Positions 6,018 to 39,241 of a stretch of DNA of 40,875 nt are shown piece after piece. The notes beneath the pieces were generated by a model, which was not told the DNA's origin, did no database searches, and saw only the letters and a list, made by a program, of their open reading frames with translations. Position 1 is the first letter of the stretch; each line of letters opens with the position of its first letter. A program made the translations under genes and the position numbers. The stretch is taken from positions 1-40,875 of the IMG/VR virus record IMGVR_UViG_3300025324_000399. One strand, written 5' to 3'. Source of the stretch: a virus.

Positions 6018-6024
6018 TTAGACA

Positions 6025-11441: not shown

Positions 11442-11471
11442 TTGACACGTCGATTTTACTTGTTATACCAT
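11442..11471 (+). promoter_or_regulatory. Leaderless-type promoter TTGACA-N18-TACCAT
   Basis: TTGACA (11442-11447), TACCAT (11466-11471), then seven bases and ATG 11479. No Shine-Dalgarno. Drives the three Ser/Thr-tail paralogues. Confidence 0.78.
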
Positions 11472-11478
11472 TTACTAA

Positions 11479-14724: not shown

Positions 14725-14725
14725 C

Positions 14726-17352: not shown

Positions 17353-17353
17353 T

Positions 17354-20867: not shown

Positions 20868-21702
20868 AGAGGTAACGATTATAGTTCCAACATTAAATAG
20901 GGGCAAGGAAATAAAATTCTCACTTTTGTATTGTTTAGAGTCTTTGAACGAAACTGCTCCTAGCATAAAAAAAATAATAGCTATAAACGGAACGGTAGAA
21001 GACTTAGACGAAGAAGCCGATACGTTTCCTACGATGGCTGATTCTTTTATTTCTTTAACAGAACAGGGACAATGCAAGGCTACAAATGCGGCAGTAGCTA
21101 CGACCAATACTCCTTGGATTTTTGTAACAAATGACGATATGGTATATCCTGAAGGGTGGTTTGATAAGTTGGCTTATTGGACTGAGGTTCCTAAATTACA
21201 GTGCGTAAGTCCTAAGTTAGTTGAACCAAGATCGGGAGCTCCAACGTTCTTAGTAGAATTTTGTGGGGGGGCAGGTGGGGATTTTGACAAGCGCAAATTT
21301 ACAGAGTTTGTGAAAAATAGTAAAAAGCCAGAAAGATTAGATTCAGGATTTAATCTGCCTTTTCTTATCAAACGAGAACTTTGGGATTTAATAGGAGGTT
21401 ATGATATAAACTACGATCCTTGGGGATCAAATTCGGATTCAGACTTAGAGTATAAAATTAAATCAGCAGGAGTGGATATGTGGCAGGCTCAGAATTGTTT
21501 AGTCTATCATTTTTCTCAAACTTCAGGAACTTTTGAGCCCAAAAACGACTCACACAGATTTAAAAACTACGCTTACTTTAAGGAAAAATGGGGTTTTGAC
21601 AGAACGGATAATGGAATATGGGAAGCTACTTTTAATATCCCAACAAAAGAAGAAGGTCGCAAGTTTAACCCAACGTGGGAAAACTATTATGGATCTAAAT
21701 AA
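20854..21702 (+). CDS. GT2 family glycosyltransferase
   Basis: 282 residues. Motifs VTIIVPTLNRGKEIKFSLLY, CKATNAAVATTNTPWIFVTN with NDD at 93-95 (DxD), and LIGGYDINYDPWGSNSDSDL, a D-x-D-L acceptor/base region. C-terminal YHFSQTSGTFEPKNDSHRFK is typical of GT2 enzymes related to rhamnosyl and glycan-chain transferases. More A/T-rich than its left neighbours, like the DegT gene, suggesting the two entered together. Ends overlapping the next gene by 14 nt. Confidence 0.85.
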   Translation: MIKPEEVTIIVPTLNRGKEIKFSLLYCLESLNETAPSIKKIIAINGTVEDLDEEADTFPTMADSFISLTEQGQCKATNAAVATTNTPWIFVTNDDMVYPEGWFDKLAYWTEVPKLQCVSPKLVEPRSGAPTFLVEFCGGAGGDFDKRKFTEFVKNSKKPERLDSGFNLPFLIKRELWDLIGGYDINYDPWGSNSDSDLEYKIKSAGVDMWQAQNCLVYHFSQTSGTFEPKNDSHRFKNYAYFKEKWGFDRTDNGIWEATFNIPTKEEGRKFNPTWENYYGSK

Positions 21703-22201
21703 ACTTGATGTAGAAGCTCCTCTGGGAGCGTTTAGCGTTCTTGATGCTGAGATCTTAGTTCCAGAAGTTGAGAAACTTGGATCGGGACAGATTTATCTTG
21801 AGATAGGAGTTGATAAAGGAAAGTCATTGTATATTGCAAGACAAGCTGCAAAAGAAGGAGTAACGGTATATGGGATCGATGTTGGGGAAGATCCTAAGAT
21901 ACCAGGAACGAAGTTTTTCCAAGCAGATAGTAGATCATTTTCAAGAACATGGAATGAAGCTATAGACGTTTTGTTTATAGATGGGGATCATAGCTACATA
22001 GGTTGCAGAACAGATATTGAGCTATGGTATCCGTTTATGGGGAATAATGGGGTTATGTTGTTTCACGATGGAGATACTACTTCACCGGGTGTTGTCTGGG
22101 CTGTTGCTGAATTTGTAGATACTCATAGAGGAGTAGTTAAAGAGTGGATAATTCATAAAAGGACAGATAAAAATACAAGTATGATGACTGTAAGACTTTA
22201 A
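21689..22201 (+). CDS. Methyltransferase, Methyltransf_24 type (copy 1)
   Basis: 170 residues from ATG 21689; the frame is open further upstream but that lies inside the previous gene. Motif I YLEIGVDKGKSLYIA (about 36-50), VYGIDVGEDPKIPG, ADSRSF, then VLFIDGDHSYIGCRTDIELW and GGVMLFHDGD-like GNNGVMLFHDGDTTSPGV. The FIDGDHSY...DxxLW pattern is the Methyltransf_24 class, used for small-molecule and sugar O-methylation. A close paralogue follows at 22218. A/T-rich. Confidence 0.83.
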   Translation: MDLNKLDVEAPLGAFSVLDAEILVPEVEKLGSGQIYLEIGVDKGKSLYIARQAAKEGVTVYGIDVGEDPKIPGTKFFQADSRSFSRTWNEAIDVLFIDGDHSYIGCRTDIELWYPFMGNNGVMLFHDGDTTSPGVVWAVAEFVDTHRGVVKEWIIHKRTDKNTSMMTVRL

Positions 22202-22217
22202 TGAGATTTGCTAAGTT

Positions 22218-22766
22218 ATGAAAACGATTCCAGAGCTAGATGAACATATAGCAAAACACATTCAAGGTGGGTTTGGTCAGGCTGATATGGCGGTAATGCG
22301 TGAGGAAGCCTCTAAATTGAAGCGTGGGCAGGTCTACGTTGAGATAGGTGTTGATGAGGGTAGATCAGCCAGAGTATTCCACGAATACGCACCAGAGGGC
22401 GTTTACGGAGTGTTTATAGATATCCACGATCACGGCCCTATCCCCGAAGTTAGCGTGTCTAGGGCTGTGTTCATGGAGCAGGAAGGAATGGTGGGGTTAC
22501 TAAAGCGAAAGTTCTACGTGCATGGGGATGCTGATGAGTTTGTAGCCTTGTTTCCTTATCCATTCATAGACCTTATGTTCATAGACGGGCATCACAATTA
22601 TGACTCGGTAAAACAGAACACTCTACTATGGGAGCCAAAGATGAATAAAGGAGGAACTATTCTGTTTCACGATTACGACCACCCTGAAACTAAACAATGG
22701 CTTGACGAACACTACGGAAAGAAGATGGAGATACTACATAACAAAATAGTTCGTGTTAGAAAATGA
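22218..22766 (+). CDS. Methyltransferase, Methyltransf_24 type (copy 2)
   Basis: 182 residues. Motif I VYVEIGVDEGRSARVF, GVFIDIHDHGP, then LMFIDGHHNYDSVKQNTLLW and GGTILFHDYDHPET. The FIDG-H-x-Y-D and FHDYD signatures match the gene just upstream, so this is a tandem paralogue pair, diverged in sequence. Overlaps the next gene by 4 nt. Presumed glycan O-methyltransferase by location. Confidence 0.83.
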   Translation: MKTIPELDEHIAKHIQGGFGQADMAVMREEASKLKRGQVYVEIGVDEGRSARVFHEYAPEGVYGVFIDIHDHGPIPEVSVSRAVFMEQEGMVGLLKRKFYVHGDADEFVALFPYPFIDLMFIDGHHNYDSVKQNTLLWEPKMNKGGTILFHDYDHPETKQWLDEHYGKKMEILHNKIVRVRK

Positions 22767-23749
22767 AAGTCAACTTTGTGGGAGCATTTAACCAACCCGG
22801 ATATGTGGGAGAGATTTCAGATGAAACTCACTTGGCCACTAATCTTGAGAGTTATGTACAAGTAGTCCGTATACCAAGAGACGAGTGGCGTGAGTATGTT
22901 ATAGAGGGCAGTCCAAAAGGTAAGTATAAGAATGTACCTACTGACCTGAAGGCGGATATTAACCTTATTGCCAAGTGGCATCACTTTTATGACGGGAGCT
23001 TTATAAGACGGCTTAGGGAAGAAAGCGGTGCACCGGTATTCTACTGGATATGGGATTTCATGTGGGATCAGGGGTTTCCTGAATGGCACATCAAAATGGC
23101 TCAGGAAGCTGATCTGTATTTATCAGGCGAGGCTGGGATATTTGACGAGTATAAAAAGCTAGGTGTTAAACCCTACTATTTTCAGATGGATGTGTGTGAT
23201 GGGGATCTGCCCAACTACCAAACCTCCCACAAAAAGTATGATGTAGTATTCACAGGTTCATGCATAGGTCAGGGACATAGAAAAGAGTGGTTGCAGATTA
23301 TAGACAAGGAGGTACCCGTTAAGATATTTGGGTGGGGACATGAGGAGTGGAGGAAGCTTGGACTGGATGCAGAACCTCCTGTATATGGCGCAGCATACAA
23401 CAAGCTAATCTCAGAAAGCAAGGTTGTATTGGGATTTTCGGCAGAGCCAAACTGTTATGGATATTGGTCAAACAGAGTCGGCAAGGTGTTGACTGCTGGT
23501 GGGTTTTTGTTGCAAGAGTATGCACCGGGCATGGAGTGGCTTCTACCACAGGGTATAGCATATTTTAACACCCCTAAAGAGGCTATCGCTAAGATAAAAT
23601 ACTTTTTGGTGAACGAAGAAGAAAGGCAACGGATGAACCGCACCTACAGAGGGATTCAGTACACCTCAAAAATAAGGTCGGGACAGTTGGCGTTATTGAT
23701 GGATAGGTATTTGGAGGGGGATCCAGCAAAATGGAACATCTTACCATAG
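22763..23749 (+). CDS. CgeB-like glycosyltransferase (GT-B)
   Basis: 328 residues. N-terminal half includes LKADINLIAKWHHFYDGSFI and APVFYWIWDFMWDQGFPEWH, then ADLYLSGEAGIFDEYKKLGV. The second half has YDVVFTGSCIGQGHRKEWLQ, PVYGAAYNKLISESKVVLGF and SNRVGKVLTAGGFLLQEYAP GMEWLL, the layout of the CgeB/Glyco_trans_1_2 group in which a GT-B donor domain ends with R-x-x-E/K-x-L-x-x-G-x-x-L. Likely adds a sugar to a protein or glycan. Overlaps next gene by 19 nt. Confidence 0.78.
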   Translation: MKVNFVGAFNQPGYVGEISDETHLATNLESYVQVVRIPRDEWREYVIEGSPKGKYKNVPTDLKADINLIAKWHHFYDGSFIRRLREESGAPVFYWIWDFMWDQGFPEWHIKMAQEADLYLSGEAGIFDEYKKLGVKPYYFQMDVCDGDLPNYQTSHKKYDVVFTGSCIGQGHRKEWLQIIDKEVPVKIFGWGHEEWRKLGLDAEPPVYGAAYNKLISESKVVLGFSAEPNCYGYWSNRVGKVLTAGGFLLQEYAPGMEWLLPQGIAYFNTPKEAIAKIKYFLVNEEERQRMNRTYRGIQYTSKIRSGQLALLMDRYLEGDPAKWNILP

Positions 23750-24252
23750 CCCCATACGCCCACTATGGCCGTCCCAAAGGACAAGGGCTAAAATTACATT
23801 TGGGGTGTGGGGATTATTGGTTTGAGGGATACATAAATATAGACGCTCAGGTATTTGCGGGAACCGATATGATCGCAGACATTCGGGAGTCCCTCCCATT
23901 TCAGCCAGAGACTATAGAGACTATTGAGGCGCATGATGTCGTGGAGCATTTTAACAGGGATGAGGTACATAACATACTGGAAGACTGGAAAAGAGTGCTT
24001 ATACCCGAGGGGAAGGTTATAATAAGCGTACCTGATATGGATGGACTTATCGCACAATACGAGCATGACAAGGAGAATACGATTCAGCAGATTTACTCGA
24101 TTGTAGATCATCCTTCCCACAAGTGGGGGTACACTAAGGAGTCTATGTTCAAATTATTAGAACATCATGGACTTAACAATATACAAGTTTCACAGGTAGA
24201 GTATGAACACCGATCAGGAGAGCCCAAGCTCAAAGCAACCGCAACAAAGTGA
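23731..24252 (+). CDS. SAM-dependent methyltransferase (class I, short)
   Basis: 173 residues. Motif I LKLHLGCGDYWFEGYINIDA (LGCGDYW 24-30), DMIADIRESLPFQPETIETI, EAHDVVEHFNRDEVHNILED, and GKVIISVPDMDGLI. The HLGCG-x-x-x-x-GY-N-D pattern is typical of short methyltransferases found in polysaccharide loci. Start ATG 23731 has GGAGGGGG about 10 nt upstream. Ends 50 nt into the next gene, the longest overlap in the locus. Confidence 0.82.
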   Translation: MEHLTIAPYAHYGRPKGQGLKLHLGCGDYWFEGYINIDAQVFAGTDMIADIRESLPFQPETIETIEAHDVVEHFNRDEVHNILEDWKRVLIPEGKVIISVPDMDGLIAQYEHDKENTIQQIYSIVDHPSHKWGYTKESMFKLLEHHGLNNIQVSQVEYEHRSGEPKLKATATK

Positions 24253-24937
24253 TCTGTGGTTTTTTACCCCGGACACCGAGACCTTGTGTCGTGGTGGGGG
24301 AAATGGCCCAAATCACCCTTCCCAACTGTATGCCATCAAAAAGTACGTGGAGCCTAGGATGAGTTTCCTAGATTATGGATGTGGGTCGGGAACAACTTTG
24401 GAGGCTTTACTAGAAGGAGGCTACCACCCCTACGATCCTACTAAGCATCTTAATTTTTTTGATAGCTCCAAAGGTCAGGCTCCATTGTTTTACCACGGAA
24501 CGGACATAATCGGAAAGAATATAGAGTGGTGTCAGCAAAAATGGCCTGATCAGAGTTTTTTCATTAATCCCTCCATTCACAAGATAGATCAGGATGATAG
24601 GAGTTTTGACGTTGTTTACTCACGGCACGTTGTAGATCACATGAGGAGCTTTGAGGATGCCTTGGATGAGCATTGTAGGGTGTCTAGGAGTCTGGTAATA
24701 GTTGTACTGTGGACGGGGCTTTTGGATTCTGAAGAGCATGAGATTAAAAATATAGTGGATCAACGGGGTCTGCCCACCGAAAAAGTCTATCCCGATGAAT
24801 ACACCAACAACTATTCCCGTAAGAAAGTCCTTGACTATCTTGAAAATAAAGAAGGCTGGAAACTTATGGAATTGACAGAAAATGTTGGAGCAGAAGTGAA
24901 AGGGTGTGATACCGTTATCGTTCTTAAAAAAATATGA
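24203..24937 (+). CDS. SAM-dependent methyltransferase (class I)
   Basis: 244 residues. Motif I FLDYGCGSGTTLEALL (LDYGCGSG 56-63), DVVYSRHVVDHMRSFEDALD, and RSLVIVVLWTG. A 100-residue C-terminal part (KVYPDEYTNNYSRKKVLDYL) follows. The RHVVDHM-x-SFEDAL stretch parallels HCLDHLDDYEAAI in the protein encoded at 19123, and both have 'VLW' afterwards, suggesting that they are related. The start lies within the preceding gene (50-nt overlap); no later start retains the N-terminal WFFTPDTETLCRGG region. Confidence 0.8.
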   Translation: MNTDQESPSSKQPQQSDLWFFTPDTETLCRGGGNGPNHPSQLYAIKKYVEPRMSFLDYGCGSGTTLEALLEGGYHPYDPTKHLNFFDSSKGQAPLFYHGTDIIGKNIEWCQQKWPDQSFFINPSIHKIDQDDRSFDVVYSRHVVDHMRSFEDALDEHCRVSRSLVIVVLWTGLLDSEEHEIKNIVDQRGLPTEKVYPDEYTNNYSRKKVLDYLENKEGWKLMELTENVGAEVKGCDTVIVLKKI

Positions 24938-25926
24938 CTCCAAAGATTTTGATAATTCCTGCCCGAAGGCATATCATAGAGGCATATACTGAGTATCTGA
25001 TTTCATATCTGTCAGACGAGTTTTATTTTGATGTAGGCTACCCCCCAGAGGCCGAATACTACGACTCTATTGCTGTAAACGTATTTGAAAAGAATACCTC
25101 GATTCTAAACAAAAATCCTAACGATTATGATCTTATTTATCCCCACTTCTCAACCCATACATTTCTGGAGCCTGAAAGTGCCTTTCAGCATAAACTGGCA
25201 ATAGTCATACTAGACTCGTTTCCTAGGTTTCATGGGGATGTTGCGGTATGGGGAAGTGCCACGGAGGGGATGTCCCCGTCCCAACCTCATCACAAGCTAC
25301 GGTTTGGGATAGATACCAAACTACTTCGACCCATTCCAATGGCAAGAACCGATGATAAGTTTAGGGTAGGAACGCTGGGGAACGTGCAGACCCCAAGAAG
25401 ATACGTCAAGGAACTATTCGTAGAGGCTTTATCAAGTATGGATAAGACACGGCTTATGATCTATCCTGCCGAGTGGCACAAGCATACCAGAATAGACGAG
25501 ATAGAGCTTATGGGCGGGATGCCATTTTTAAGTTCAGTAGTGGACGGGGATAGACAGTATCCTTCACTTCCGAATATGTATAACCAGATGGATGTGTTCG
25601 TGCGTCCCGACATAGATCAGGGGTATCACTTTCCTGTTATGGAAGCAGCGGCTTGTGGGGTGCCTGTGGTGTGTTGTGATAGTGGCAACAATAAAGAACT
25701 TACCGACGCCGGTGGGGGGATACTTATTGATCCATCGGATAGAGATTTGACAAGAATAGCCCGTGAGATAAGAGGCGCCTGTGAATACTTGCGGGATAAT
25801 ACGCACGAGAGGATCAAGATGGGAATAGCGGGAAGAAAGTTTATTGAGAAAAACTACACATGGAGCAAATGGGCTCCCAAGTGGCGGGAGTTTTTCAGGG
25901 AGGGGATAAAAAATGCGAACATTTGA
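24934..25926 (+). CDS. Glycosyltransferase, GT4/GT-B type
   Basis: 330 residues. KFRVGTLGNVQTPRRYVKEL opens the donor domain; then LPNMYNQMDVFVRPDIDQGY HFPVMEAAACGVPVVCCDSG holds the E-x-A-A-C-G-x-P-V-V motif of GT4 transferases (acid residues in the Glu-rich donor site), and GGGILIDPSDRDLTRIARE follows. N-terminal half is short (PKILIIPARRHIIEAYTEYL). Overlaps both neighbours, so translation is coupled. Confidence 0.86.
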   Translation: MTPKILIIPARRHIIEAYTEYLISYLSDEFYFDVGYPPEAEYYDSIAVNVFEKNTSILNKNPNDYDLIYPHFSTHTFLEPESAFQHKLAIVILDSFPRFHGDVAVWGSATEGMSPSQPHHKLRFGIDTKLLRPIPMARTDDKFRVGTLGNVQTPRRYVKELFVEALSSMDKTRLMIYPAEWHKHTRIDEIELMGGMPFLSSVVDGDRQYPSLPNMYNQMDVFVRPDIDQGYHFPVMEAAACGVPVVCCDSGNNKELTDAGGGILIDPSDRDLTRIAREIRGACEYLRDNTHERIKMGIAGRKFIEKNYTWSKWAPKWREFFREGIKNANI

Positions 25927-27055
25927 GTTGAGGGCGTTTAACAATCTTATGGAACAAGTTATGAGAATAAAAAAGCGACTTTTATCTACTAATTATAAAG
26001 ATAGGCCAACGATAGAAGATAAGCAGTGGATTATGGGAGGAAGCACTTTAACTCTTAGACCTGAATTTGTGAATTTGTATATCAATGAGGATTTACGAAA
26101 GATTTATGGTAGAGAAAACTTAACATTAAAGATTTTTTATAATCCATATCCTTTGGAGATGAATTTTTATAATTGCCACTGGAGCCAACAGTCCCGTTTA
26201 TTTGAATCGACTTCCATACAAAATATATTTGCTTTTTATGGATACGCTCCTTTTATATCCGATCTTGTTTTTTTAAAAAACGGTTTTGTAAAGTACATTG
26301 CTCAAGTAACCGAGTTTATTTCTTCTGAGACAATTTTTGATAAAGAAATAGAAGACAATTATAAAAAAGAGATCAATGATTTTTGCGAGACTAATGGATT
26401 TTTGCATTACGATTTAGACCGCCAAAATTTACGAGAGAAGAAAATAACCGATTTTCAAGGATATAGGTTTATCAGAAAAGACAATATCTATGGAAATTTT
26501 CTATCTATATTTATAGAAAGGATCAAAAAAGGATTGTCTTTTGGCGGAGATGAGAACTTACCCTACCAGTCTGTAGAAGAGTTGGATATTGTAGGAAGAA
26601 GAAGCAATTTAAAGCGTCAGGAGTTTATAAACTTGAAAGGGGAAAATCTGGGAGACAGGTGGAGTGTATTGGATATTGGATGCAATGGTGGATATTTTTT
26701 AAGAAGAGCGATGGATAACGGAGCAAGTATGGCCCTCGGAGTAGATACCTACAAAGTTGCAGAAACAGCTCACTGGCTCAATAATTATCTTGGATATTTT
26801 AATGCTAAATTCCAAGAAGAGATGCCACAAGAAAAATTTGATGTCGTTTTGTTTTTGTCAGGGTTTTCCTATTTTAACTTAGATACAGTTTGCAGTTTAT
26901 CAAACAATCTCATGTTTTTTGAAGGACATGGAAATCATAAAGCAGAAGAATATATCCCCTTGCTAAAACCGCATTTTAAAAACATACAAGTTTTAGGATC
27001 TGTAAATGATTATCCCGAATCTGGGAAAAGGGTAATAATACGATGTCAAAAGTAA
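25913..27055 (+). CDS. Two-part protein with C-terminal SAM methyltransferase domain
   Basis: 380 residues. Residues 1-240 have no recognised family (EFVNLYINEDLRKIYGRENL, EMNFYNCHWSQQSRLF, and FSGGDENLPYQSVEEL-like late part), and may bind acceptor or ATP. From 252 the sequence VLDIGCNGGYFLRRAMDNGA is motif I of a class I methyltransferase, with LGVDTYKVAETAHWLNNYLG as motif II and KFDVVLFLSGFSYF as motif IV. Markedly A/T-rich compared with neighbours. Overlaps neighbours by 13-14 nt. Similar two-part enzymes methylate phage or bacterial polysaccharides, but that is inferred. Confidence 0.75.
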   Translation: MRTFELRAFNNLMEQVMRIKKRLLSTNYKDRPTIEDKQWIMGGSTLTLRPEFVNLYINEDLRKIYGRENLTLKIFYNPYPLEMNFYNCHWSQQSRLFESTSIQNIFAFYGYAPFISDLVFLKNGFVKYIAQVTEFISSETIFDKEIEDNYKKEINDFCETNGFLHYDLDRQNLREKKITDFQGYRFIRKDNIYGNFLSIFIERIKKGLSFGGDENLPYQSVEELDIVGRRSNLKRQEFINLKGENLGDRWSVLDIGCNGGYFLRRAMDNGASMALGVDTYKVAETAHWLNNYLGYFNAKFQEEMPQEKFDVVLFLSGFSYFNLDTVCSLSNNLMFFEGHGNHKAEEYIPLLKPHFKNIQVLGSVNDYPESGKRVIIRCQK

Positions 27056-28185
27056 CTAAATGCAGAATCTGTAAAGGTAGAAAGTTTAAAAGAGTGTTTT
27101 CGCTAGGCAAACAGCCTTTGGCAAACAAGTTTATTGATCCTAAAAAGGACAAGGTAAGAGAAAAGGTGTATCCCCTCGTTCTTTTACAGTGTCAGGGTTG
27201 CACCTTATTGCAGCTTTCGTATGTTGTGCCAAAGGAAGAAATGTATGATGAGTACTTTTACGTTCCGTCAGTCTCAAAAACGAACCTTTTGCATTTTCAA
27301 AATATTGTCAAAAAAACAGTAAAAGCTCTTAGGCTTAAAAAAGGAGATCTTGTAGTAGATATAGGATCTAACGATGGGAGTCTGCTCTCTCATTTTAAGA
27401 AAAAAGGGATAAAGGTAATAGGCGTTGATCCTGCCAGAAATATCAAAAGCAAGGTTAAGACGGTGGTTGGATATTTTGACAGAGCAACGGCTTCTCTTAT
27501 TGTTCGCACTACAGGAAAATACGCAAAGCTCGTTACTGCAACCAATGTTTTTGCCCACGTTGATGATCTGTATGCTTTTATTGAGGCTCTTGACTTATTG
27601 CTTGATGGGGATGGGGTATTCTTTGCACAGTTCCCTGACGCCCGAAACCTTCTTGCTCAAAACCAGTTTGACACGATATACCACGAACACTTATCGTATT
27701 TTACCTACGAGCCACTATATGCTCTTTTTGCAAATACACCGTTTGAGCTTTTTAATATAACCTCAGACAACATTCATGGGGGGAGTATGCAGATTTGGGT
27801 AAGACGTAGAAGGTCTCTTATTCCAGAATTCGTAGCTCACTCTATAAAGATTAAAAAAACCTTAAAAAAGCTTATTGTCGCCGAGAAGAAAAGGGGGAAG
27901 AAGATTGTTGGTTTTGCAGCGTCAGCCAAAGGGACTGTTCTTCTTAATTTTTGTGGACTCGATAGTTCTTTAATAGATTATGTCGTTGACGGGACAAAGT
28001 ATAAACAGGGGAAGATGGTTCCCGGAACGAATATAAGGATTTACCCAGAGTCCCATCTTAAAAAAAACCCCCCCGACATAATACTTATTCTTGCATGGAA
28101 CTTTGAGAAGGAGATCTTGAAGAAACTTCATGGCAGAGGTTATGAATGTATTATTCCAATTCCTAAAGTTAAACTCATAAAATGA
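27043..28185 (+). CDS. Sugar C-methyltransferase (Methyltransf_13/14 family)
   Basis: 380 residues, the usual length of NDP-sugar C-methyltransferases of the TylC3/TcaB9/NovU group, which add a methyl to C3 (or C5) of a 4-keto deoxysugar. Seen: N-terminal zinc ribbon Cys7-x2-Cys10 and Cys50-x2-Cys53 with LGKQPLANKF between; motif I LVVDIGSNDGSLLSHFKKKG; and the family hallmark FDTIYHEHLSYFTYEPL, whose Tyr/Glu/His contribute to catalysis. The C-terminal Methyltransf_14 domain follows: KIVGFAASAKGTVLLNFCGL and IYPESHLKKNPPDIILILAW. Strong assignment; implies a branched-chain deoxysugar. Confidence 0.9.
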   Translation: MSKVTKCRICKGRKFKRVFSLGKQPLANKFIDPKKDKVREKVYPLVLLQCQGCTLLQLSYVVPKEEMYDEYFYVPSVSKTNLLHFQNIVKKTVKALRLKKGDLVVDIGSNDGSLLSHFKKKGIKVIGVDPARNIKSKVKTVVGYFDRATASLIVRTTGKYAKLVTATNVFAHVDDLYAFIEALDLLLDGDGVFFAQFPDARNLLAQNQFDTIYHEHLSYFTYEPLYALFANTPFELFNITSDNIHGGSMQIWVRRRRSLIPEFVAHSIKIKKTLKKLIVAEKKRGKKIVGFAASAKGTVLLNFCGLDSSLIDYVVDGTKYKQGKMVPGTNIRIYPESHLKKNPPDIILILAWNFEKEILKKLHGRGYECIIPIPKVKLIK

Positions 28186-29138
28186 AAATAGCAATAGCTG
28201 ACAACGCAGGTTTAAAGTTCTGTCAGGACTTGAAAGAACACTGGGAAAAGAAACATGAGGTAAGATATGAGCGTGGAGCGAGTGAGCATTTGGCTCAATG
28301 GGCCGATCTTTACTATGTTGAGTGGATTGATGGAAACCTAGACTACCTATGGAAGATATATAACGGGGCAGAGGGAGTGTCCCGAACCGAAGACTGGGAC
28401 AATAACAAAAAGCCCAAAATCGTTTGTAGGATGATTGACTGGGATGTGTGGGTCGAGTATGTTCCCTTCTACTCCCAGCAATATATAGACTTCATAGATA
28501 CCGCAATAGTCATAGCCCCACATATAAAAGACAGAATAGAGGAGAAGGCCAACTACGGCACAAAGTTGCACTTGATAGAACCCGGAGTAAACCTTGACAA
28601 GTTCCCGCTCAAAACCCAAAAAAACGACGGTTTTCAGTTGGGGATGGTGTTGGGGGATATGTGGTGGCCTAAAAACCACATGGGAGGGCTGGATATATTC
28701 ACTCAGTTATATAGACAGAATAAGCAGTGGAGGTTTCACATACGAGGGCAGCACGAAGGGGGACAGTATTGGCCTAAAATGTACGAACACTACATAGAAT
28801 CAAGAGGTATTAAAGACGTAGTAAAACTCTACGCTCACGTTGATCAGATGAACCAATGGTACGAGAATATTGATATACTATTGCATCCGGGGATGAAGGA
28901 GACATTCTGCTATGCGGTAGCAGAGAGCATGAGCAAGGGGATACCAACTGTTGTCAACAAATTCATGGGAGCCGAGAAAGTATGGGATGAGGGGATGTTG
29001 TACGAAACACACGATCAGGCTGTCAGGATGATTAAACAAGCACAAGAAGCAGATCCTAAATTTATAAGAAAACACATTGAAAAACGCTACCCCTTGCAAA
29101 GTATGTTAGATAAGTTTGATACACTATTGGGAACATGA
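28182..29138 (+). CDS. Glycosyltransferase, GT4/GT-B type
   Basis: 318 residues. KLHLIEPGVNLDKFPLKTQK is the inter-domain G-V-x-x-x-x-F motif; FQLGMVLGDMWWPKNHMGGL starts the donor domain; DILLHPGMKETFCYAVAESM SKGIPTVV is the ETF-E-S-M-x-x-G donor site of GT4. N-terminal half has ADLYYVEWIDGNLDYLWKIY. Overlap with both neighbours; the stop TGA overlaps the ATG of an HNH gene. Substrate unknown. Confidence 0.87.
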   Translation: MKIAIADNAGLKFCQDLKEHWEKKHEVRYERGASEHLAQWADLYYVEWIDGNLDYLWKIYNGAEGVSRTEDWDNNKKPKIVCRMIDWDVWVEYVPFYSQQYIDFIDTAIVIAPHIKDRIEEKANYGTKLHLIEPGVNLDKFPLKTQKNDGFQLGMVLGDMWWPKNHMGGLDIFTQLYRQNKQWRFHIRGQHEGGQYWPKMYEHYIESRGIKDVVKLYAHVDQMNQWYENIDILLHPGMKETFCYAVAESMSKGIPTVVNKFMGAEKVWDEGMLYETHDQAVRMIKQAQEADPKFIRKHIEKRYPLQSMLDKFDTLLGT

Positions 29139-29578
29139 AAAAGATCAAATTAAACAAAGGACTTTTTACCAAAATAGACGACCAAGATTATAATCTGGTT
29201 AGTAAAAAGAAATGGTTTGTTTCTAGCAACGGATATGTAGTAGGAAACTTTAGAAATAAAGGAAAAAATAAGACTATACTATTGTCGAGATATTTATTAG
29301 ACCCCCCCAAAGGACTTACTGTAGATCATATTAACAGAGATAAACTAGACAACAGAAGAATCAATTTAAGAACTGTAACTCAAAGTATAAATTCTCATAA
29401 TCAAAAATTAAAAGTAGATAATACAAGTGGTTATAAGGGAGTTTCGTATATAAAAGAACTTGGAAAATGGGTTGCTAGAATTAGGATGAATTATAAACGT
29501 ATTCATTTGGGTTTATTTGATAGTCCAGAAAAGGCAAGTAACGCTTATATTAAAGCAGAAAGGAGTTACTGTGAGTGA
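29135..29578 (+). CDS. HNH endonuclease with AP2 DNA-binding domain
   Basis: 147 residues. HNH part GLTVDHINRDKLDNRRINLR (Asp64-His65, Asn73, Asn77), followed by an AP2-type DNA-binding domain SGYKGVSYIKELGKWVARIR ending HLGLFDSPEKASNAYIKAE. This is the standard architecture of phage AP2/HNH homing endonucleases. A/T-rich, flanked by ATGA with the glycosyltransferase upstream and an overlap with the deacetylase start downstream (29571). Distinct from the HNH at 18735 but related to the one at 30239. Confidence 0.9.
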   Translation: MKKIKLNKGLFTKIDDQDYNLVSKKKWFVSSNGYVVGNFRNKGKNKTILLSRYLLDPPKGLTVDHINRDKLDNRRINLRTVTQSINSHNQKLKVDNTSGYKGVSYIKELGKWVARIRMNYKRIHLGLFDSPEKASNAYIKAERSYCE

Positions 29579-30251
29579 TTGGGATAGAAAAAACAGACCG
29601 TTGGTTATTTTAGAATCAGATGACTTTCAGGATAAGTACGACCGAAATGGTCTTGAAATGTTATTTTACTGGAAGGCTAAGTATCCTAAGTTTAAGATTT
29701 CCCTTTTTACCATACCCAACAAGACGAGCAAAGGTATGCTTGATCTTATGGAAAAACACGACTGGATAGAGCTTTTGGTACATGGCTGGGATCACGACTC
29801 AAATTACGAGTGTTGGGAATGGGATTATGAGAAAACTACTGCATTAATGAATAGGTTGGACGGGAGGTATAGAAAGGTTTTTAAGGCTCCCGGGTGGATG
29901 ATTACGGGTGATGAAAACGGCGGTGGATCAGGCTATCCCCTCCAATCTCACAACAAATTAGCGTCAGATAATCAAGCATTATATAAAGCGATGAGAGATT
30001 TAGAGTTTGTCGTGTTTGACCGCCATTATAACAAGCAGTTCAGACTTGAAGACACAAAAATAGTATGCGTGGACTGTAATTCAGATATAGTTCATTGTCA
30101 TACTTGGGACATGATTACAGGTGACCTCGCTGGAAAGAATGGCTTTCGGCAAATCGAAGAACTCCATGGTGTCCCATGGGATAATAACACTGATTTTTAT
30201 TTTGTTAGCGAAGCACTAGAAAAGGGATTGTTTAAGTCATGTCAAGAGTAA
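29571..30251 (+). CDS. NodB-like polysaccharide deacetylase
   Basis: 226 residues from GTG 29571 (VSDWDRKNRP). Carbohydrate esterase 4-type deacetylases remove N- or O-acetyl groups using a metal bound by Asp and two His. Here LVILESDDFQ gives the acid pair (Asp17, Asp18) and ELLVHGWDHDS gives His71-x3-His75. KAPGWMITG resembles the R-x-P-x-G motif, and IVHCHTWDM near the C-terminus the final His/Leu motif. GTG was chosen over an ATG 54 nt upstream because AAAGGAG precedes it by 5 nt and the upstream part lies in the HNH gene. Ends overlapping the next HNH gene by 13 nt. Confidence 0.75.
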   Translation: MSDWDRKNRPLVILESDDFQDKYDRNGLEMLFYWKAKYPKFKISLFTIPNKTSKGMLDLMEKHDWIELLVHGWDHDSNYECWEWDYEKTTALMNRLDGRYRKVFKAPGWMITGDENGGGSGYPLQSHNKLASDNQALYKAMRDLEFVVFDRHYNKQFRLEDTKIVCVDCNSDIVHCHTWDMITGDLAGKNGFRQIEELHGVPWDNNTDFYFVSEALEKGLFKSCQE

Positions 30252-30643
30252 TTGTAGATCAAAACAACAGAGCGTTATTGAATCAATACAAATGGTTTAT
30301 TAAATCCAATGGATATGTTACTGCAAAAATAAAAGGGAAATTTATTTTATTGCACCGATTAGTAATGAAAGCTAAAGAGGGAGAAGAAATAGACCATATA
30401 AATAAGAACAAACTTGATAATCGTAGATCAAATTTAAGATTTTCCGACAGAGTCAAAAATATGCGAAATGCCACTTATAGACCGGGGGAAAGTGGACTAG
30501 TAGGAGTAAGTTTTCATTCACAAAACAATAATTGGGTTGCTAGGATAAGATTGAACGGAAAGAGAAAACATCTTGGATCTTTTTCTACCAAAGAAGAAGC
30601 ACATAAAACCTATCAATTAGCTCTACAATCATGTCAGACGTAA
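30239..30643 (+). CDS. HNH endonuclease with AP2 domain
   Basis: 134 residues. HNH part EEIDHINKNKLDNRRSNLRF (Asp52-His53, Asn61) then an AP2-like domain GLVGVSFHSQNNNWVARIRL and HLGSFSTKEEAHKTYQLA. Both ends sit in matching sequence: TCATGTCAAGAGTAA at the upstream junction and TCATGTCAGACGTAA at the downstream one, so the gene appears inserted at a duplicated junction, restoring the stop of the gene before and the ATG of the gene after. A/T-rich. Confidence 0.9.
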   Translation: MSRVIVDQNNRALLNQYKWFIKSNGYVTAKIKGKFILLHRLVMKAKEGEEIDHINKNKLDNRRSNLRFSDRVKNMRNATYRPGESGLVGVSFHSQNNNWVARIRLNGKRKHLGSFSTKEEAHKTYQLALQSCQT

Positions 30644-31548
30644 CCTTCGTATATCCAATAATAAGAACGGACTACGTAGGAAGATCCCTAGAGACCTTAT
30701 TTAAGTACACTGACAGATCAAAATTTAAGCTAATCGTAGTAGACCAATCCATAGAGGGTTTAGCGCATAATCCTAACATTGATTTATACATAAGAATGAA
30801 AAATGCGGGCTTCTCAAAGGCTGCTAACGAGGGAATAGTACATGGGCTAAAGTGGGAAACACCATATATCGCAGTGGTAAACGACGACACTGAGTTTATG
30901 TATTCAGGTTGGTGGGAAGATGCGATAGAGGAGTTTAAAACAGATCCCAATATAGTTGCGATCTGTCCCGAGTCCCCACGGGTTGCCATGTGGGGATACG
31001 GACTGGAACATGGAATAAATCTTGATCTTATTGCACACAAAGAGGAGTTTAGCCGTGAGGATATAGAGTATCTAAAATCAGGCGATTACAACAAGGAGGA
31101 AATACAATCTAGGCATGATTTTAAGATCCCCGACTCCTTCCCTATTACCAAGCGTGGCGTGGTGGATGCCATAGCCATGTGGATGCCTATTTTCAAGCGT
31201 GAGGCGTTTATTGAACTTGGGCTGTTTGAAGAGCGGTTTATTTGGGGAGGCGGGGAGGACTACGATATGAACTGTAGAGCCTACTCCTGTGGCTACCCTA
31301 TCCCCCGTAAAGAGTGTGATCCTAAGTATCACAGACGTATGGTTTCCACCATGAAGTCATGGGTTTGGCACTTCTGGGGAAAGAGCAAAGATATTAAACA
31401 CGAACTTAATCCAAAGCTGTTTGAGGGACATGAACCATGGAATGATAATAAGTATCTGTGGGGAGAGAAATTTGACGTATGGGGGCATTATGAAGAAAAT
31501 GGCATAAAAAAACCCTTAACACGCTTAGTACCGCCTCTAATATCCTGA
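30631..31548 (+). CDS. GT2 family glycosyltransferase
   Basis: 305 residues. VTFVYPIIRTDYVGRSLETL, FKLIVVDQS, KNAGFSKAANEGIVHGLKWE and YIAVVNDDTEFM with NDD at 84-86. GLFEERFIWGGGEDYDMNCR supplies the G-G-E-D-Y-D motif (catalytic base Asp/Glu) typical of active GT2 enzymes. Last gene of the glycan locus; followed within 5 nt by an extended -10 promoter for the long Ser/Thr protein. Confidence 0.86.
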   Translation: MSDVTFVYPIIRTDYVGRSLETLFKYTDRSKFKLIVVDQSIEGLAHNPNIDLYIRMKNAGFSKAANEGIVHGLKWETPYIAVVNDDTEFMYSGWWEDAIEEFKTDPNIVAICPESPRVAMWGYGLEHGINLDLIAHKEEFSREDIEYLKSGDYNKEEIQSRHDFKIPDSFPITKRGVVDAIAMWMPIFKREAFIELGLFEERFIWGGGEDYDMNCRAYSCGYPIPRKECDPKYHRRMVSTMKSWVWHFWGKSKDIKHELNPKLFEGHEPWNDNKYLWGEKFDVWGHYEENGIKKPLTRLVPPLIS

Positions 31549-31552: not shown

Positions 31553-31567
31553 TATAATCAATTAGAC
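31553..31567 (+). promoter_or_regulatory. Extended -10 promoter with TTAGAC before ATG 31568
   Basis: TGCTATAAT (TATAAT at 31553-31558) gives an extended -10; then CAATTAGAC and ATG 31568. The block AATTAGACATGGC recurs at 33530-33542. No Shine-Dalgarno. Confidence 0.62.
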
Positions 31568-33514
31568 ATGGCAGTAGTATCGGTAGTCTCCGCTTCAACC
31601 AAAGTATCAGGCTCAACAAGTTCATTAACTCTGACCAAACCCACTGATACAGCAGATGGGGATTTGATTGCAGTATGGGCGCATGGTGATGAGAGTGTTG
31701 AGGGAACTGCCGAGTTTGACATAACAGGGTTTACCGACTTGTTTGACCCCTCCATAAGAGGCGGAACAACCGCAGGGGCATCTGGTAAGGTGTTGCATAA
31801 GGTAGCATCAGGAGAGGGCGCATCTTGGGAAGTTACACGCACAGGAGGGTCGGGCAACTGGGGCGCTATTGCGATGCGTATCACAAACACAGGTGGTACT
31901 CCTCTTATTGACACCTTTGCTACAGCAACATCAGCAGAAGATGAGGCTGTTACACCAACTTTAACAACGGGTGCAGATAACTGTCTTATCATACGAGGTG
32001 CAACGTGGAACGAGAGCAAGACCTTAACGGCAGTCCCTGCAGATCATACCGCAATCCAGCATAACGACCTCTCATCAAATGACGGGCATACAGTCTATAC
32101 AACGGCTGAGATTGAAACATCAGGCACAAACGTGGGTACGGCTAGTTACGATCTGTCGGCAACCACAGAGACTGCAACCTTTACCCTTTCGATAAAACCT
32201 CCCGCTGTAGCAACGACCACATCCACTACTACATCTACATCCACCACAACCACTACCAGCACTTCCACTAGTACAACAACCACTAGTACCTCAACCACTA
32301 CCAGTACCTCAACTTCAACCAGTACCTCCACCACCACAACCTCAACGTCTACGACAACCACTACATCTACGAGTACGAGTACATCTACTACAACCACTAG
32401 TACTAGTACGACAACCACGACTTCCACAAGCACTTCCACTTCTACCTCTACCACCTCATCCTCCACCTCAACCTCCACAACAACCTCAACAACCACCTCA
32501 ACCTCGACCACCACAACCTCTACTTCAACTACAACGACAACCTCAACTAGTACTTCCACTTCAACTACGACCACTTCCACTTCTACGTCTACTACGACTA
32601 GCACATCCTCATCTACAACTACAACAAGTACTTCCACTTCTACAACCACTACCAGCACGAGTACATCTACTACAACGAGTACATCTACATCCACCACAAC
32701 GACATCTACTTCTACCACAACAACCACGAGCACAAGTACTAGTACCTCTACGACTACCACTTCTACGAGCACATCAACCACTACAACCAGTACGTCTACT
32801 TCTTCTACCACTAGTACCTCGACATCAACCACAACAACTTCAACCTCAACAAGTACTACCACAAGTACTAGCACTTCAACTACTACGTCAACCTCAACAA
32901 CTACTACTTCCACCTCGACCTCCACTTCAACTTCAACCTCAACGAGTACAACAACCACATCAACTTCCACTTCAAGTACAACAAGCACTAGTACTACAAC
33001 TAGTACCTCAACTACGACAACTTCTACTTCAACGAGTAGTTCAACCAGCACCAGTACGTCAACAACCACTACTTCTACCAGTACTACGACTTCAACAACC
33101 ACTAGTACCTCAACCACTACAACTAGTACCTCAACTACGACAACAACCAGCACCAGTACGTCAACTTCAACCACCACAACCAGTACGAGTACCTCCACAA
33201 CCACCTCTACCTCCACAACCACATCAACTTCCACTTCGACCACTACAACCTCTACTTCAACTAGTACCTCTACCTCAACGAGTACAACCACTACTTCAAC
33301 TTCCACTTCGACGTCAAGTTCAACTTCAACCACCACGACGAGTACCTCAACTTCAACTACCAGTTCCACCAGTACTACTACTACCATGACCTATCATTTC
33401 TCGCTTGAAAAAGATCAGACCGAATTAGTGATCGGGGAGGATGCGGATAAGTTGGAGTTTGGCGTGGAGAACGGAGAACAAAAGAAAATTGAAGTAACTC
33501 ATGGAGATAATTGA
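31568..33514 (+). CDS. Virion protein with 391-residue Ser/Thr-only stalk
   Basis: 648 residues in three parts. 1-210 is a beta-rich domain (SSLTLTKPTDTADGDLIAVW, IAMRITNTGGTPLIDT, NLSS-like LSSNDGHTVYTTAEIETSGT) of the type found in phage fibres and adhesion proteins. 216-606 is, as far as I can read, Thr and Ser only. 607-648 is an acidic end piece, MTYHFSLEKDQTELVIGEDA DKLEFGVENGE, similar in style to the end of the 34045 protein. The architecture is folded domain, stalk, cap. The stalk is an ideal O-glycosylation substrate in extended form, and the gene follows directly after the glycan locus. Minus-strand and other-frame ORFs here are shadows. Confidence 0.82.
   Translation: MAVVSVVSASTKVSGSTSSLTLTKPTDTADGDLIAVWAHGDESVEGTAEFDITGFTDLFDPSIRGGTTAGASGKVLHKVASGEGASWEVTRTGGSGNWGAIAMRITNTGGTPLIDTFATATSAEDEAVTPTLTTGADNCLIIRGATWNESKTLTAVPADHTAIQHNDLSSNDGHTVYTTAEIETSGTNVGTASYDLSATTETATFTLSIKPPAVATTTSTTTSTSTTTTTSTSTSTTTTSTSTTTSTSTSTSTSTTTTSTSTTTTTSTSTSTSTTTTSTSTTTTTSTSTSTSTSTTSSSTSTSTTTSTTTSTSTTTTSTSTTTTTSTSTSTSTTTTSTSTSTTTSTSSSTTTTSTSTSTTTTSTSTSTTTSTSTSTTTTSTSTTTTTSTSTSTSTTTTSTSTSTTTTSTSTSSTTSTSTSTTTTSTSTSTTTSTSTSTTTSTSTTTTSTSTSTSTSTSTSTTTTSTSTSSTTSTSTTTSTSTTTTSTSTSSSTSTSTSTTTTSTSTTTSTTTSTSTTTTSTSTTTTTSTSTSTSTTTTSTSTSTTTSTSTTTSTSTSTTTTSTSTSTSTSTSTTTTSTSTSTSSSTSTTTTSTSTSTTSSTSTTTTMTYHFSLEKDQTELVIGEDADKLEFGVENGEQKKIEVTHGDN
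32213..33385 (+). repeat. Long Ser/Thr-coding degenerate repeat (STT tract 4)
   Basis: About 391 consecutive Ser/Thr codons, ACN mixed with TCN and AGY. Codon choice varies continually, so the amino-acid content is far more regular than the DNA. 33293-33339 is identical to 34303-34349 (47 bp), and 33281-33339 matches 34291-34349 with one difference. Confidence 0.88.
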
Positions 33515-34044: not shown

Positions 34045-34440
34045 ATGGCCGATTTTTTGAAGAAAGAGGATGCAGACTACATACTTCAAGAAGATGGTAC
34101 TTCTAAAATTCTTTTAGAGCAACAGACTACTACTTCAACTACAACCACAACAACTACTAGTACTTCTACCTCTACTAGCACAACCACGACAAGCACATCT
34201 AGTTCTACTTCAACCTCAACGACTAGTACTGTAACTTCGACCTCTACCTCAACGTCTACAACAAGTAGCACCTCCACCTCGACATCCACTAGTACAACCA
34301 CCACTTCAACTTCCACTTCGACGTCAAGTTCAACTTCAACCACCACGACTACAACATGGCCTTATTCCTTTGAAATTGAACAAGAAGCTAAGAATAACGA
34401 ACTATCCTTTGAAGTTGACAGAAAGACAGAGCAAGTGTGA
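34045..34440 (+). CDS. Small protein with 77-residue Ser/Thr stalk
   Basis: 131 residues. A short N-terminal segment MADFLKKEDADYILQEDGTS KILLEQQ (a DYILQEDGTSKILLE piece reminiscent of fibre tail-end domains) is followed by Thr/Ser at 28-104, then WPYSFEIEQEAKNNELSFEV DRKTEQV. The C-terminal end piece resembles that of the 31568 protein (aromatic-S-x-E, then a run ending FEV/FGVE), so the two appear to share stalk and cap design. Part of the stalk DNA is shared with the 31568 gene. Function inferred as a surface appendage. Confidence 0.72.
   Translation: MADFLKKEDADYILQEDGTSKILLEQQTTTSTTTTTTTSTSTSTSTTTTSTSSSTSTSTTSTVTSTSTSTSTTSSTSTSTSTSTTTTSTSTSTSSSTSTTTTTTWPYSFEIEQEAKNNELSFEVDRKTEQV
34126..34356 (+). 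repeat. Ser/Thr-coding repeat (STT tract 5)
   Basis: Seventy-seven Ser/Thr codons. Its last third (34291-34349) matches 33281-33339 in tract 4 with one mismatch, with a continuous 47-bp identity. Confidence 0.85.
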
Positions 34441-34463: not shown

Positions 34464-35762
34464 ATGAGAAAGATAAAGATAGACAATCCCGTTCTTGATT
34501 CCTACGTTACCGATATCTCATCAGATTACTCGTCTGGAACCTCAGTTACGGTTAGAAATAACGTGTCGTTTGCCGCAGACGATCTGGGGGTGTTTGGAAA
34601 TCCAACAGAGGAGCTTACCGAGCTTAAAAAAATATCAAGCGTTTCAGGATCAACTACTCTAACTTTAGCCTCAGCACTAAATTTTGCTCACAACAAGGGG
34701 ACGCCAGTTTACAAGTCAATATGGGATCAGGTGTCAATAGAAGGCAGGTCATCTTCTGCTGGAACTTTTGCCGAACTTACTCAATCTGCTATTCAATGGG
34801 ATAATCCAAAAGGAAAGACCGTTTACTTTCACAGCTCAGGCGATGATAACTGGCAGTATAGGTTCAGATTCTACAATACTGTTACCACAACTTATTCCGA
34901 ATACTCTCCCACGTTGGCGGGAACTGGGTTTACGCAAACTCAGATGGGGTACATAATAAAAGAGGCACGACGTATAGCGGGGGATAAGGAAGGAAAGATA
35001 ATGAGGGTTGATGAGCTATTAAGAGCCGCTACCCGTGCCAAAAACATAATAAGAGCCCATAACGGAAGGTATTGGTTTTGGAAGGTAAATGGCAGAAACT
35101 CCAGCAAAAGTATCTCGGGTATCGCAGGGACGGCTGTGTATTCACTTTCCTCAATTTCCGATTTTGGGACTATGGATACGATAGAGTGCCGGTACAATTC
35201 GGGAGGCACGGATCAGCTATGGATGTTAAGCAGAAAAGGGGATGCCGAGTTTCAGGAATATGCAAGAGACTTGAACCGCCCCAATACCGACTATCCCCAT
35301 TATTATAGACTATTGCCCCCAGACTCCGCATCAACCTTGGGATATTTTGAGGTTGAGAACAAGATAAAAAGTGATGGCGTAGTAACATTCTATATAAACT
35401 ACTACAAGATTGAATCAAACTATGACAGCGTTGACGACACAACTGCCATTATAATGCCTGAGATACTGGAGGATTATCTTATTGCCGAGATATTTGCGAC
35501 CAAAGGAAATGACACTAAGGCCAAAGAGTATAGAAAGAAGTTCTACGGGCCTGACGGGCGGGATAAAACACTGGCTTTGGAGGAGCTGGACGGGATAGCG
35601 TTATTGGATGAGCTGGATAAACAGTACAAGACATCACAAGGACAGCCCAAACAACTATGGAGATTCAGAGGTCAACGTGCCATATCTAGGCTCTACGGAT
35701 CCCGTCAGGTGGTTGCACCCGACTATATCCGTGAAAATTATTTTGATGGCCCTGAATACTAA
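34464..35762 (+). CDS. Probable tail adaptor/head-completion protein
   Basis: 432 residues. Residues 1-150 look like a beta domain (SSDYSSGTSVTVRNNVSFAA, TTLTLASALNFAHNKGTPVY). From about 160 a helical region begins, QMGYIIKEARRIAGDKEGKI MRVDELLRAATRAKN, followed by YWFWKVNG and strands ending FYINYYKIESNYDSVDDTTA. The second part resembles podovirus head-tail adaptor (tail tubular A or P22 gp4-like) proteins, with the -helix-strand-YW-x-W- pattern. It directly precedes the gp10-like gene, matching adaptor order. Similarity is by eye only. Confidence 0.55.
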   Translation: MRKIKIDNPVLDSYVTDISSDYSSGTSVTVRNNVSFAADDLGVFGNPTEELTELKKISSVSGSTTLTLASALNFAHNKGTPVYKSIWDQVSIEGRSSSAGTFAELTQSAIQWDNPKGKTVYFHSSGDDNWQYRFRFYNTVTTTYSEYSPTLAGTGFTQTQMGYIIKEARRIAGDKEGKIMRVDELLRAATRAKNIIRAHNGRYWFWKVNGRNSSKSISGIAGTAVYSLSSISDFGTMDTIECRYNSGGTDQLWMLSRKGDAEFQEYARDLNRPNTDYPHYYRLLPPDSASTLGYFEVENKIKSDGVVTFYINYYKIESNYDSVDDTTAIIMPEILEDYLIAEIFATKGNDTKAKEYRKKFYGPDGRDKTLALEELDGIALLDELDKQYKTSQGQPKQLWRFRGQRAISRLYGSRQVVAPDYIRENYFDGPEY

Positions 35763-35764: not shown

Positions 35765-36049
35765 ATGGCCGAGCTTGACGAGAAAATTAAAATACTGCCT
35801 GTTGAGAATTTCAGCAAGGGAATACAGCGTAAGTCTTCACGTTTCCAACAGGATCCCGGCGAGGTAAACATAGCCGAGAATATCTCATTTGATCCTATAG
35901 GCGGGTTTGGCAAGAAGCTAGGCTACGTACAGCAAAACTCCGACCTTACTTCTACCACAACAACTAGTACAAGCACCTCCACGACTACAACCTCAACAAG
36001 CACTAGCACTACTACAAGTTCAAGCACAAGCACCACAACAACGGCTTAA
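35765..36049 (+). CDS. N-terminal fragment of a gp10-like protein with Ser/Thr tail
   Basis: 94 residues. Residues 1-61 (KILPVENFSKGIQRKSSRFQ, PGEVNIAENISFDPIGGFGK KLGYV) match the start of phage propeller/stabilisation proteins, which open N-F-S-x-G, pass A-x-N-x-x-x-x-x-G-x-x-x-K-R-x-G-Y, and continue directly into the propeller. Here, at the point where the propeller should continue, 32 Ser/Thr residues and a TAA intervene. The next gene starts at the very next base and in the same frame, and reads like the rest of the protein. See the 36050 entry. Confidence 0.75.
   Translation: MAELDEKIKILPVENFSKGIQRKSSRFQQDPGEVNIAENISFDPIGGFGKKLGYVQQNSDLTSTTTTSTSTSTTTTSTSTSTTTSSSTSTTTTA
35948..36043 (+). 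repeat. Ser/Thr-coding repeat (STT tract 6)
   Basis: Thirty-two codons of Thr and Ser ending just before GCT TAA ATG. The shortest tract, located exactly at the break in the gp10-like protein. Confidence 0.85.
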
Positions 36050-37612
36050 ATGGCGGATATTACTGGGCTCATAGGATATAACTCTCCATCGGGAACCAAT
36101 CTACTATTGGCTGCCTACGAGAACGATGTTGTGAATGTATCAACGGGTTTAGGGTATGGTCTTAACCTTACTTCGGGGAATGAGGTGTTTTTTGAGACAT
36201 TTATAGATGCGGTGTTTATGTGCAACGGCACAGACCCCATGCGATCATTCGTGTCAGGATCGTTTTGGAGCAACTCATTTTCCCTGCCTTATCAGATAGT
36301 ACCTAAATACATTAGAAAGTCAGTCAACAACGCACAGCTTTTGGTGGGGAACGTTACTCTAACCCCCGGCTCGGGAACGGCTCTTAACTACAAGTCAAGG
36401 GTTTTCAAGTCCCTATTTCCCAAGCTGGGTAAATCCCCGTCTGGTGCGGTTATATCTCAAAGCTTGGAATGGGGAGTAGTATCGGGAAGATGCAACCTAA
36501 AACAAAATACAAAAGGGGTTAAGGCGGTCTACGACGGGAATGGGAGACTACCATACTTTAAGACAAGGGGAATAAAGGTTGGCGATCCGTTTTTCTTATT
36601 GGGTGGAGACATAGGGCAGTATACGGTAGCCCGTGTAGACAGTGAGTATGAGTTGACCCTAAATGAGAACATTCCTTCTGCTGATTTGGTTAATACGAAT
36701 ATAGACTTTTGGGTGGGATCAAGCTGGTTTGACGTGGGAACTGACGACTCAGATCAGATTATGGGGTTTGGGGAAAACTCCTCACGTGATCTAATCTTTA
36801 AACTATTCTCTCTTTGGTATTACACGGGAACACAGCTTAAACAGGTAAAAGGGGCTCTTGGAACATCTGCTCCACGGTCAATCATAAACGATAGGAAAGG
36901 GAATACCTACTACTTTCATGGATCGGACATTGGGATAACGGGAATATATAAGTATGACGGAAACTCAGCAGTCAAGGCTTCACGGGCAGTGGATGTGTTT
37001 ATACAGGGAATGTCAACCTCAAACTACTCTGAGGTTGTGGCTTGGGAGGAAGGGGATGAGTTGAGATTCTTTGTAGGAGACCTGACCAACAACAACGAAA
37101 ATATCTCAATGACCAATGCGGTGGTAACGATAAACACCGCAACGGGGGCATGGGATGTTTCCCCTATCGCCGATGTCATAACAGCCTCAACCAAGTACAT
37201 AGCATCAGACGTTCAAAACTCCTACTGTGGAACATCGGACAATCAGGTAATGAAAATGGGGTCTGGCAATTCCCATAACGGTTCGCCTATAGCAGCCGTG
37301 TTGGAAACTGGGGTGATCTATCCCTCTTCCTCAGAGATCATAAACAGCTTTCCCTATATTCAGGCCATAGGCAAAAACGCCAGAGGGTTAAGGGTGTCAT
37401 ACAAGATGTGGGATAAGCCCAATGATATAGACGATAGGTGGCAGCCCTTGGGGGATATGGAGGGGGATAGAACTGAGTTTGAGCCCAATACCCAAAACAG
37501 GGTGGGGGCAGGAGTGAGCTTTAGGATAGAGGAGGATGGAACCTTGGAGAATGATTGGATGGTTGAGAAGTTATCAATTTTCTATAAACCCGATAGAACA
37601 CGCTTAATCTAA
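36050..37612 (+). CDS. P22 gp10-like tail/DNA-stabilisation protein, main body
   Basis: 520 residues of alternating strands. Starts MADITGLIGYNSPSGTNLLL AAYENDVVNV, which continues the missing part of the 35765 protein; then blade-like repeats such as FETFIDAVFMCNGTDPMRSF, FKLFSLWYYTGTQLKQV, TYYFHGSDIGITGIYKYDGN, and a C-terminal lid FRIEEDGTLENDWMVEKLSI FYKPDRTRL. Proteins of this form (P22 packaged-DNA stabilisation protein, tail tubular B) plug the portal and carry the tail. The ATG is preceded by a TAA in the same frame, so a readthrough product would be a 615-residue fusion with a Ser/Thr bridge. Confidence 0.65.
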   Translation: MADITGLIGYNSPSGTNLLLAAYENDVVNVSTGLGYGLNLTSGNEVFFETFIDAVFMCNGTDPMRSFVSGSFWSNSFSLPYQIVPKYIRKSVNNAQLLVGNVTLTPGSGTALNYKSRVFKSLFPKLGKSPSGAVISQSLEWGVVSGRCNLKQNTKGVKAVYDGNGRLPYFKTRGIKVGDPFFLLGGDIGQYTVARVDSEYELTLNENIPSADLVNTNIDFWVGSSWFDVGTDDSDQIMGFGENSSRDLIFKLFSLWYYTGTQLKQVKGALGTSAPRSIINDRKGNTYYFHGSDIGITGIYKYDGNSAVKASRAVDVFIQGMSTSNYSEVVAWEEGDELRFFVGDLTNNNENISMTNAVVTINTATGAWDVSPIADVITASTKYIASDVQNSYCGTSDNQVMKMGSGNSHNGSPIAAVLETGVIYPSSSEIINSFPYIQAIGKNARGLRVSYKMWDKPNDIDDRWQPLGDMEGDRTEFEPNTQNRVGAGVSFRIEEDGTLENDWMVEKLSIFYKPDRTRLI

Positions 37613-39201: not shown

Positions 39202-39232
39202 TTGACTTTATCCATACCTACAGTGCTATAAT
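39202..39232 (+). promoter_or_regulatory. Promoter TTGACT-N19-TATAAT, extended -10
   Basis: TTGACT (39202-39207) and TGCTATAAT (TATAAT 39227-39232), 19 nt apart, then nine bases and ATG 39242. Extended -10 compensates for the wide spacing. No Shine-Dalgarno. Confidence 0.6.
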
Positions 39233-39241
39233 AATCAAGAT

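Follow-up and report, generated by a model that had tools for sequence, protein, structure and literature searches.

A tail-nozzle gene of an uncultured short-tailed phage, IMG/VR record IMGVR_UViG_3300025324_000399, the whole of which (40,875 bases) is the window analyzed here, appears to be stably divided between two neighbouring genes. The first would encode an N-terminal segment of 61 amino acids that ends in a fixed tail of 32 Ser or Thr residues and one Ala. The ribosome would then stop, and the next ATG, overlapping or nearly touching the stop codon, would start the main body of the protein, with restart by translational coupling that needs no Shine-Dalgarno site. The small chain would take the place on the body that the N-terminus has in intact nozzles, from where the tail would leave the virion surface near the junction of platform and propeller; this tail and the other Ser/Thr tracts of the phage may be O-glycosylated by phage enzymes, forming a mucin-like coat or a receptor-contact element. 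Taken as a whole, we give this reading a probability of about 0.7.

Table 1. Features of the window that bear on the split nozzle gene and on Ser/Thr tracts
Feature	Coordinates	Strand	Remarks
Whole IMG/VR record			the window, 40875 bases
C-terminal Ser/Thr tract of ORF 11479	11623..11898	+	
C-terminal Ser/Thr tract of ORF 11904	12048..12164	+	39 residues; 39 in L002 homologue
C-terminal Ser/Thr tract of ORF 12170	12332..12454	+	41 residues; 41 in L002 homologue
Block of glycosyltransferases, sugar-nucleotide dehydrogenase, DegT aminotransferase and methyltransferases	13408..31548	+	Pfam matches
391-residue Ser/Thr tract within ORF 31568	32213..33385	+	
Ser/Thr tract within ORF 34045	34126..34356	+	
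Upstream gene, syntenic beside nozzle gene in relatives	34464..35762	+	26-27% identity to neighbours of intact nozzle genes
Predicted nozzle N-terminal 61 residues, now in separate small gene 35765-36049	35765..35947	+	profile match and alignment
32-codon Ser/Thr tract	35948..36043	+	no non-Ser/Thr codon; same 32 in four phages
Conserved small-gene end, Ala codon and TAA	36044..36049	+	GCT/GCA TAA in 4/4 phages
Predicted nozzle main body (propeller and C-terminal part), restarting at ATG	36050..37612	+	520 aa; 40% identity to G033 body; co-linear with intact relatives

The small gene (35765-36049) is an ORF of 94 amino acids, ordinary in its residues 1-61 and then composed of the Ser/Thr tract. 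The tract is followed by GCT (Ala, 36044-36046) and TAA (36047-36049), and the ATG at 36050 opens the body in the frame of the first ORF (36050 - 35765 = 285 = 3 x 95). An earlier sequence-only reading had described this order of elements within a single frame, from the 61 residues and the 32 Ser/Thr codons through Ala and TAA to ATG, and it is exact. The DNA pattern ACN x4 - NNN - TAAATGGC occurs once in the window, with none expected from shuffled sequence; 26 IMG/VR matches to it were rejected as unrelated chance hits, not split relatives. The gene upstream, ORF 34464, has no match in Pfam or PHROG.

Three further IMG/VR phages, with bodies about 38-40% identical, have the identical split architecture: one (G033) was found with a DNA pattern for the Ser/Thr tract, and two (L219 and L221) by a scan with an alignment of both bodies. 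In all four phages an N-terminal segment is followed by exactly 32 Ser/Thr residues, Ala, TAA and then ATG-GCN (ATG-Ala). Because this exact combination recurs in three other phages, the arrangement is not due to chance, and the split is old and conserved.

The same gene is one uninterrupted ORF in five related phages and in the outgroup L225. Records G016 and G017 were reached via TerL relatives and hold, beside a homologue of ORF 34464, a single uninterrupted ORF (L037:3757-5679, 640 amino acids); L050 and L052 were reached from the G017 protein, and L056 from the ORF 34464 family. As a direct query, the window body found nothing in phage records, viral contigs or 26 TerL-relative records. 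The N-termini of the intact proteins align with the 61 amino acids of the small gene, with M, S, Q, N, IG and GY invariant across split and intact forms. A profile built from the four split N-terminal parts scores 25.8-34.6 bits on four intact relatives, over their residues of about 10-58, and the window and G033 parts score higher against a profile of the region before the tract than any shuffle of their residues does. Profile-profile comparison with the intact proteins gave a probability of 96% (E = 4e-9) for the N part, 96.7% (E = 4e-10) for the body and 83% for the C-terminal part, in the same order throughout. The N-part profile alone gives no score on L225, a more distant intact homologue of the body. 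At the place of GYVQQNSDL, the tract, the stop codon and MADITGLIGYNSPSGTNLLLAAY in the window, L225 has GFLAVNEDLEVDNITNFQVFSLSTGTRFYVL, a pairing at the junction made by eye. The sequence-only reading had taken the two ORFs for the N-terminal and main parts of one gp10-like protein, with a Ser/Thr module, stop and restart between them, and had proposed alignment with uninterrupted relatives as a check; that alignment, with the body following the 61 residues co-linearly, bears it out.

The intact relatives carry a Ser/Thr tract of their own, 64-88 residues long, in frame and without a stop codon, between VGELLP and STKKV; in the predicted model of the intact L052 protein it sits between strands 404-409 and 509-514. 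That loop is a different one from the site of the split and is tract-less in the window; the position of the Ser/Thr tract in this protein therefore differs between two lineages.

The tail nozzle is the tube through which DNA leaves; its proteins, six copies of which form the tail channel below the adaptor in the P22 gp10-like family, keep the genome inside the virion. In the window, the portal protein scores above the Pfam cut-off for both P22_portal and SU10_portal, a portal of the P22/SU10 type, and the terminase TerL matches phrog_38. The AlphaFold model of L052 is weak (pLDDT 46, pTM 0.35; about 80 for residues 300-380), and for this low-confidence model each of the best 11 Foldseek hits is a tail nozzle or hub chain from a phage, among them SU10 (nozzle, E = 2e-10), Pa223, VP1, crAss001, P22 gp10 (E = 2e-6), GP4, Pan3 and A4. 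In a VIA comparison of the same model, nozzle chains reached Z scores of 13.7-11 (SU10 13.2, P22 gp10 11.6); unrelated propellers also reached 10-12, and the scores therefore support a propeller and not, by themselves, the nozzle family. The readthrough form of the window protein was modeled poorly (pLDDT 46, pTM 0.29), and its Foldseek list still includes nozzle chains. That model was too poor to place the 61-residue part. A search against PHROG, in which the known family is PHROG 578 (head closure Hc3), gave no significant hit for the window or for one intact relative, and a PDB sequence search with the N and body profiles gave no relevant hit; the distant homologue L162 matches phrog_578 at 2e-5 and the profile of the intact clade at 2e-4. 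A nozzle fold with a beta-propeller is predicted at the level of the fold for L052, and would extend to the window by homology. In SU10 the chain runs from an N-terminal platform part into blade 1, the docking place of a short tail fibre (PMC9509320), and in T7 gp12 the propeller likewise opens in blade 1 (PMC6702177). By homology, the split would lie near this platform/propeller junction, a placement made with an N-terminus that neither model resolves.

The record holds five further Ser/Thr tracts (Table 1): three form the C-termini of small genes located behind the capsid gene, and the other two lie within genes of the tail region. Identical stretches of 47 bp are shared between tracts (11626-11672 with 12105-12151, and 33293-33339 with 34303-34349), far above the maximum of 20-23 under a synonymous-codon null, and these identities point to recent recombination between tracts of different genes. 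The nozzle tract shares at most 17 nucleotides with any other tract, within the null, and a recent cassette transfer into it from the same genome was rejected. The proposal in the sequence-only reading that the module was inserted into an existing gene is not upheld for a recent event, given a split common to phages only about 40% identical and a tract without recent exchange with the others. Both interior tracts are followed by a short, similar-looking C-terminal cap (33386-33514 and 34357-34437; YHFSLEKDQTELVIGEDADKLEFGVENGEQ and YSFEIEQEAKNNELSFEVDRKTEQ), and the end of L221 (YPFELIVESVERQTIKIDLY) is similar to these caps. The related contigs L005 (G004), L008 and L058 end inside Ser/Thr tracts; assemblies probably break in such tracts and hide relatives. 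Full-text literature searching found no paper on phages with Ser/Thr tracts.

Among pairs of the four split phages, 26-30 of the 32 tract residues agree as Ser or Thr, and only 3-12 of the 32 codons are identical. Summed over pairs, the order of Ser and Thr matches at 162 positions; shuffles average 100, with 0 of 20,000 reaching the observed value, which also lies above all 20,000 Markov-simulated sets. The order has been kept with the codons scrambled, which argues that selection acts on the protein, and both length and order of the tract are maintained at that level.

What the tract carries is the weakest step. A transferase block of about 18 kb, with several glycosyltransferase families and a UDP-sugar dehydrogenase, sits between the two groups of Ser/Thr genes, and our inference is that these phage enzymes glycosylate the tracts. 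GT2 domains are present in 11 of 12 records with Ser/Thr tracts versus 0 of 5 without, a count made on related genomes and not on independent events, the five tract-less records being also more distant. G036, a 32-kb fragment, has tracts and the split and no GT2 hit. The block could instead act on host polymers or on other proteins. An unglycosylated tract might also form, by itself, an ordered or flexible fibre-like tail: its fixed length and conserved Ser/Thr order exceed the needs of a loose glycan scaffold, and it is the co-occurrence of GT2 domains and tracts in the relatives searched that speaks against this possibility, which we regard as unlikely though still deserving of weight. Most likely the tract is a C-terminal tail that the phage glycosylates, located where platform and propeller of the nozzle meet, and the gene was probably split so that sugars made by phage enzymes can be attached to this tail.

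The small gene might alternatively encode an independent decoration peptide, with the 61 amino acids serving to anchor the Ser/Thr tail on the virion and no longer completing the nozzle. Like the three small Ser/Thr-tailed genes that follow the capsid gene, it is complete and has a start of its own, and the packing of its 61-residue part on the nozzle is an expectation drawn from the intact forms. We consider this improbable, since the nozzle N-terminal residues S, Q, N, IG and GY stay invariant in split and intact proteins alike, and the match of the body profile to the intact protein is confined to what follows the N-terminal segment of that protein.

The start-to-start distance of the two ORFs is 285 in the window, 282 in G033, and 290 and 280 in the other two phages; the second ORF is in frame 0 in the window and G033, +2 in L219 and +1 in L221. 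The stop/start junctions of the four phages (TAAATG, TAAACTATG, TAATG and TAATATG) look typical of translational coupling. No Shine-Dalgarno-like site is present upstream of 36050, and by a loose test 13 of the 44 window genes have one, most genes being without. The sequence-only reading had offered a leaky TAA as a switch yielding both split and fused nozzle protein, as the single frame shared by both ORFs in the window and G033 would allow. The second ORF of L219 and of L221 is out of frame with the first, with all else conserved; readthrough therefore cannot yield a fusion there, nor can it be the conserved mechanism, and we hold it to be very improbable. Stop and coupled restart giving two polypeptides is the conserved mechanism, and the split and the absence of readthrough are both well supported. 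That the window shows a normally intact gene interrupted by sequencing error, decay to a pseudogene or a chance stop codon, as the single stop between its two ORFs might suggest, can be dismissed almost outright, given the same tract, stop, ATG and conserved flanks in three other phages.

Several observations were made alongside. A TATAAT/TATACT-like -10 box ends about 6-9 bases before the ATG at 31553-31567, 39229-39241, 11464-11478 and 6012-6024, and the genes with such a box have no ribosome-binding site, as in leaderless transcripts. A tandem repeat of the CTGCCCCTGCTG type lies near the left end of the window (214-339). One capsid relative is found in a Zambryskibacteria MAG, and capsid relatives turned up in no more than 2 of the 384 genomes of this class, too few to assign the phage a host. 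Some 740 bases carrying an HNH-like ORF on the opposite strand break up the capsid gene of this MAG (L058:2052-3723), and the TerL matches of L019 and L026 fall in two separated pieces; homing endonucleases or introns are the likely cause in these cases.

The conserved two-gene nozzle with its fixed Ser/Thr tail shows how a core tail part can gain appendages, and the tail provides a clear case in which to test whether phages O-glycosylate their virions with enzymes of their own. For translation, the point of interest is a restart directly after the tract, leaving no room for a ribosome-binding site. The wider proposal, of a phage lineage with mucin-like virions (Ser/Thr tracts of constrained length and order on several structural proteins, with a coat from a phage-encoded glycan pathway) and an essential nozzle of two chains placing one tail at the platform/propeller junction, is more tentative, and we put it slightly below even odds.

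Animal-virus glycoproteins have mucin-like O-glycosylated domains, long Ser/Thr-rich stretches on virion proteins that resemble the tracts described here; unlike them, this phage carries its own transferases, and has a tract of fixed length and order bearing a presumed glycan. In the excerpted account of cluster O mycobacteriophages (Corndog), the virion operon includes glycosyltransferase and O-methyltransferase genes, and capsid modification is suspected (PMC4351075), so that sugar- and methyl-transferase genes are found among structural genes as they are here; Corndog differs in being long-tailed and in having far fewer transferases, and Ser/Thr tracts are not mentioned in that excerpted account (PMC4351075). 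T7 gp12, the SU10 nozzle and P22 gp10 are alike in the propeller fold and C-terminal part predicted here via the Foldseek matches of the intact relative. Known podovirus nozzles are described as single chains, whereas here the N-terminal segment would be the product of a separate gene and bear a 32-residue Ser/Thr tail.
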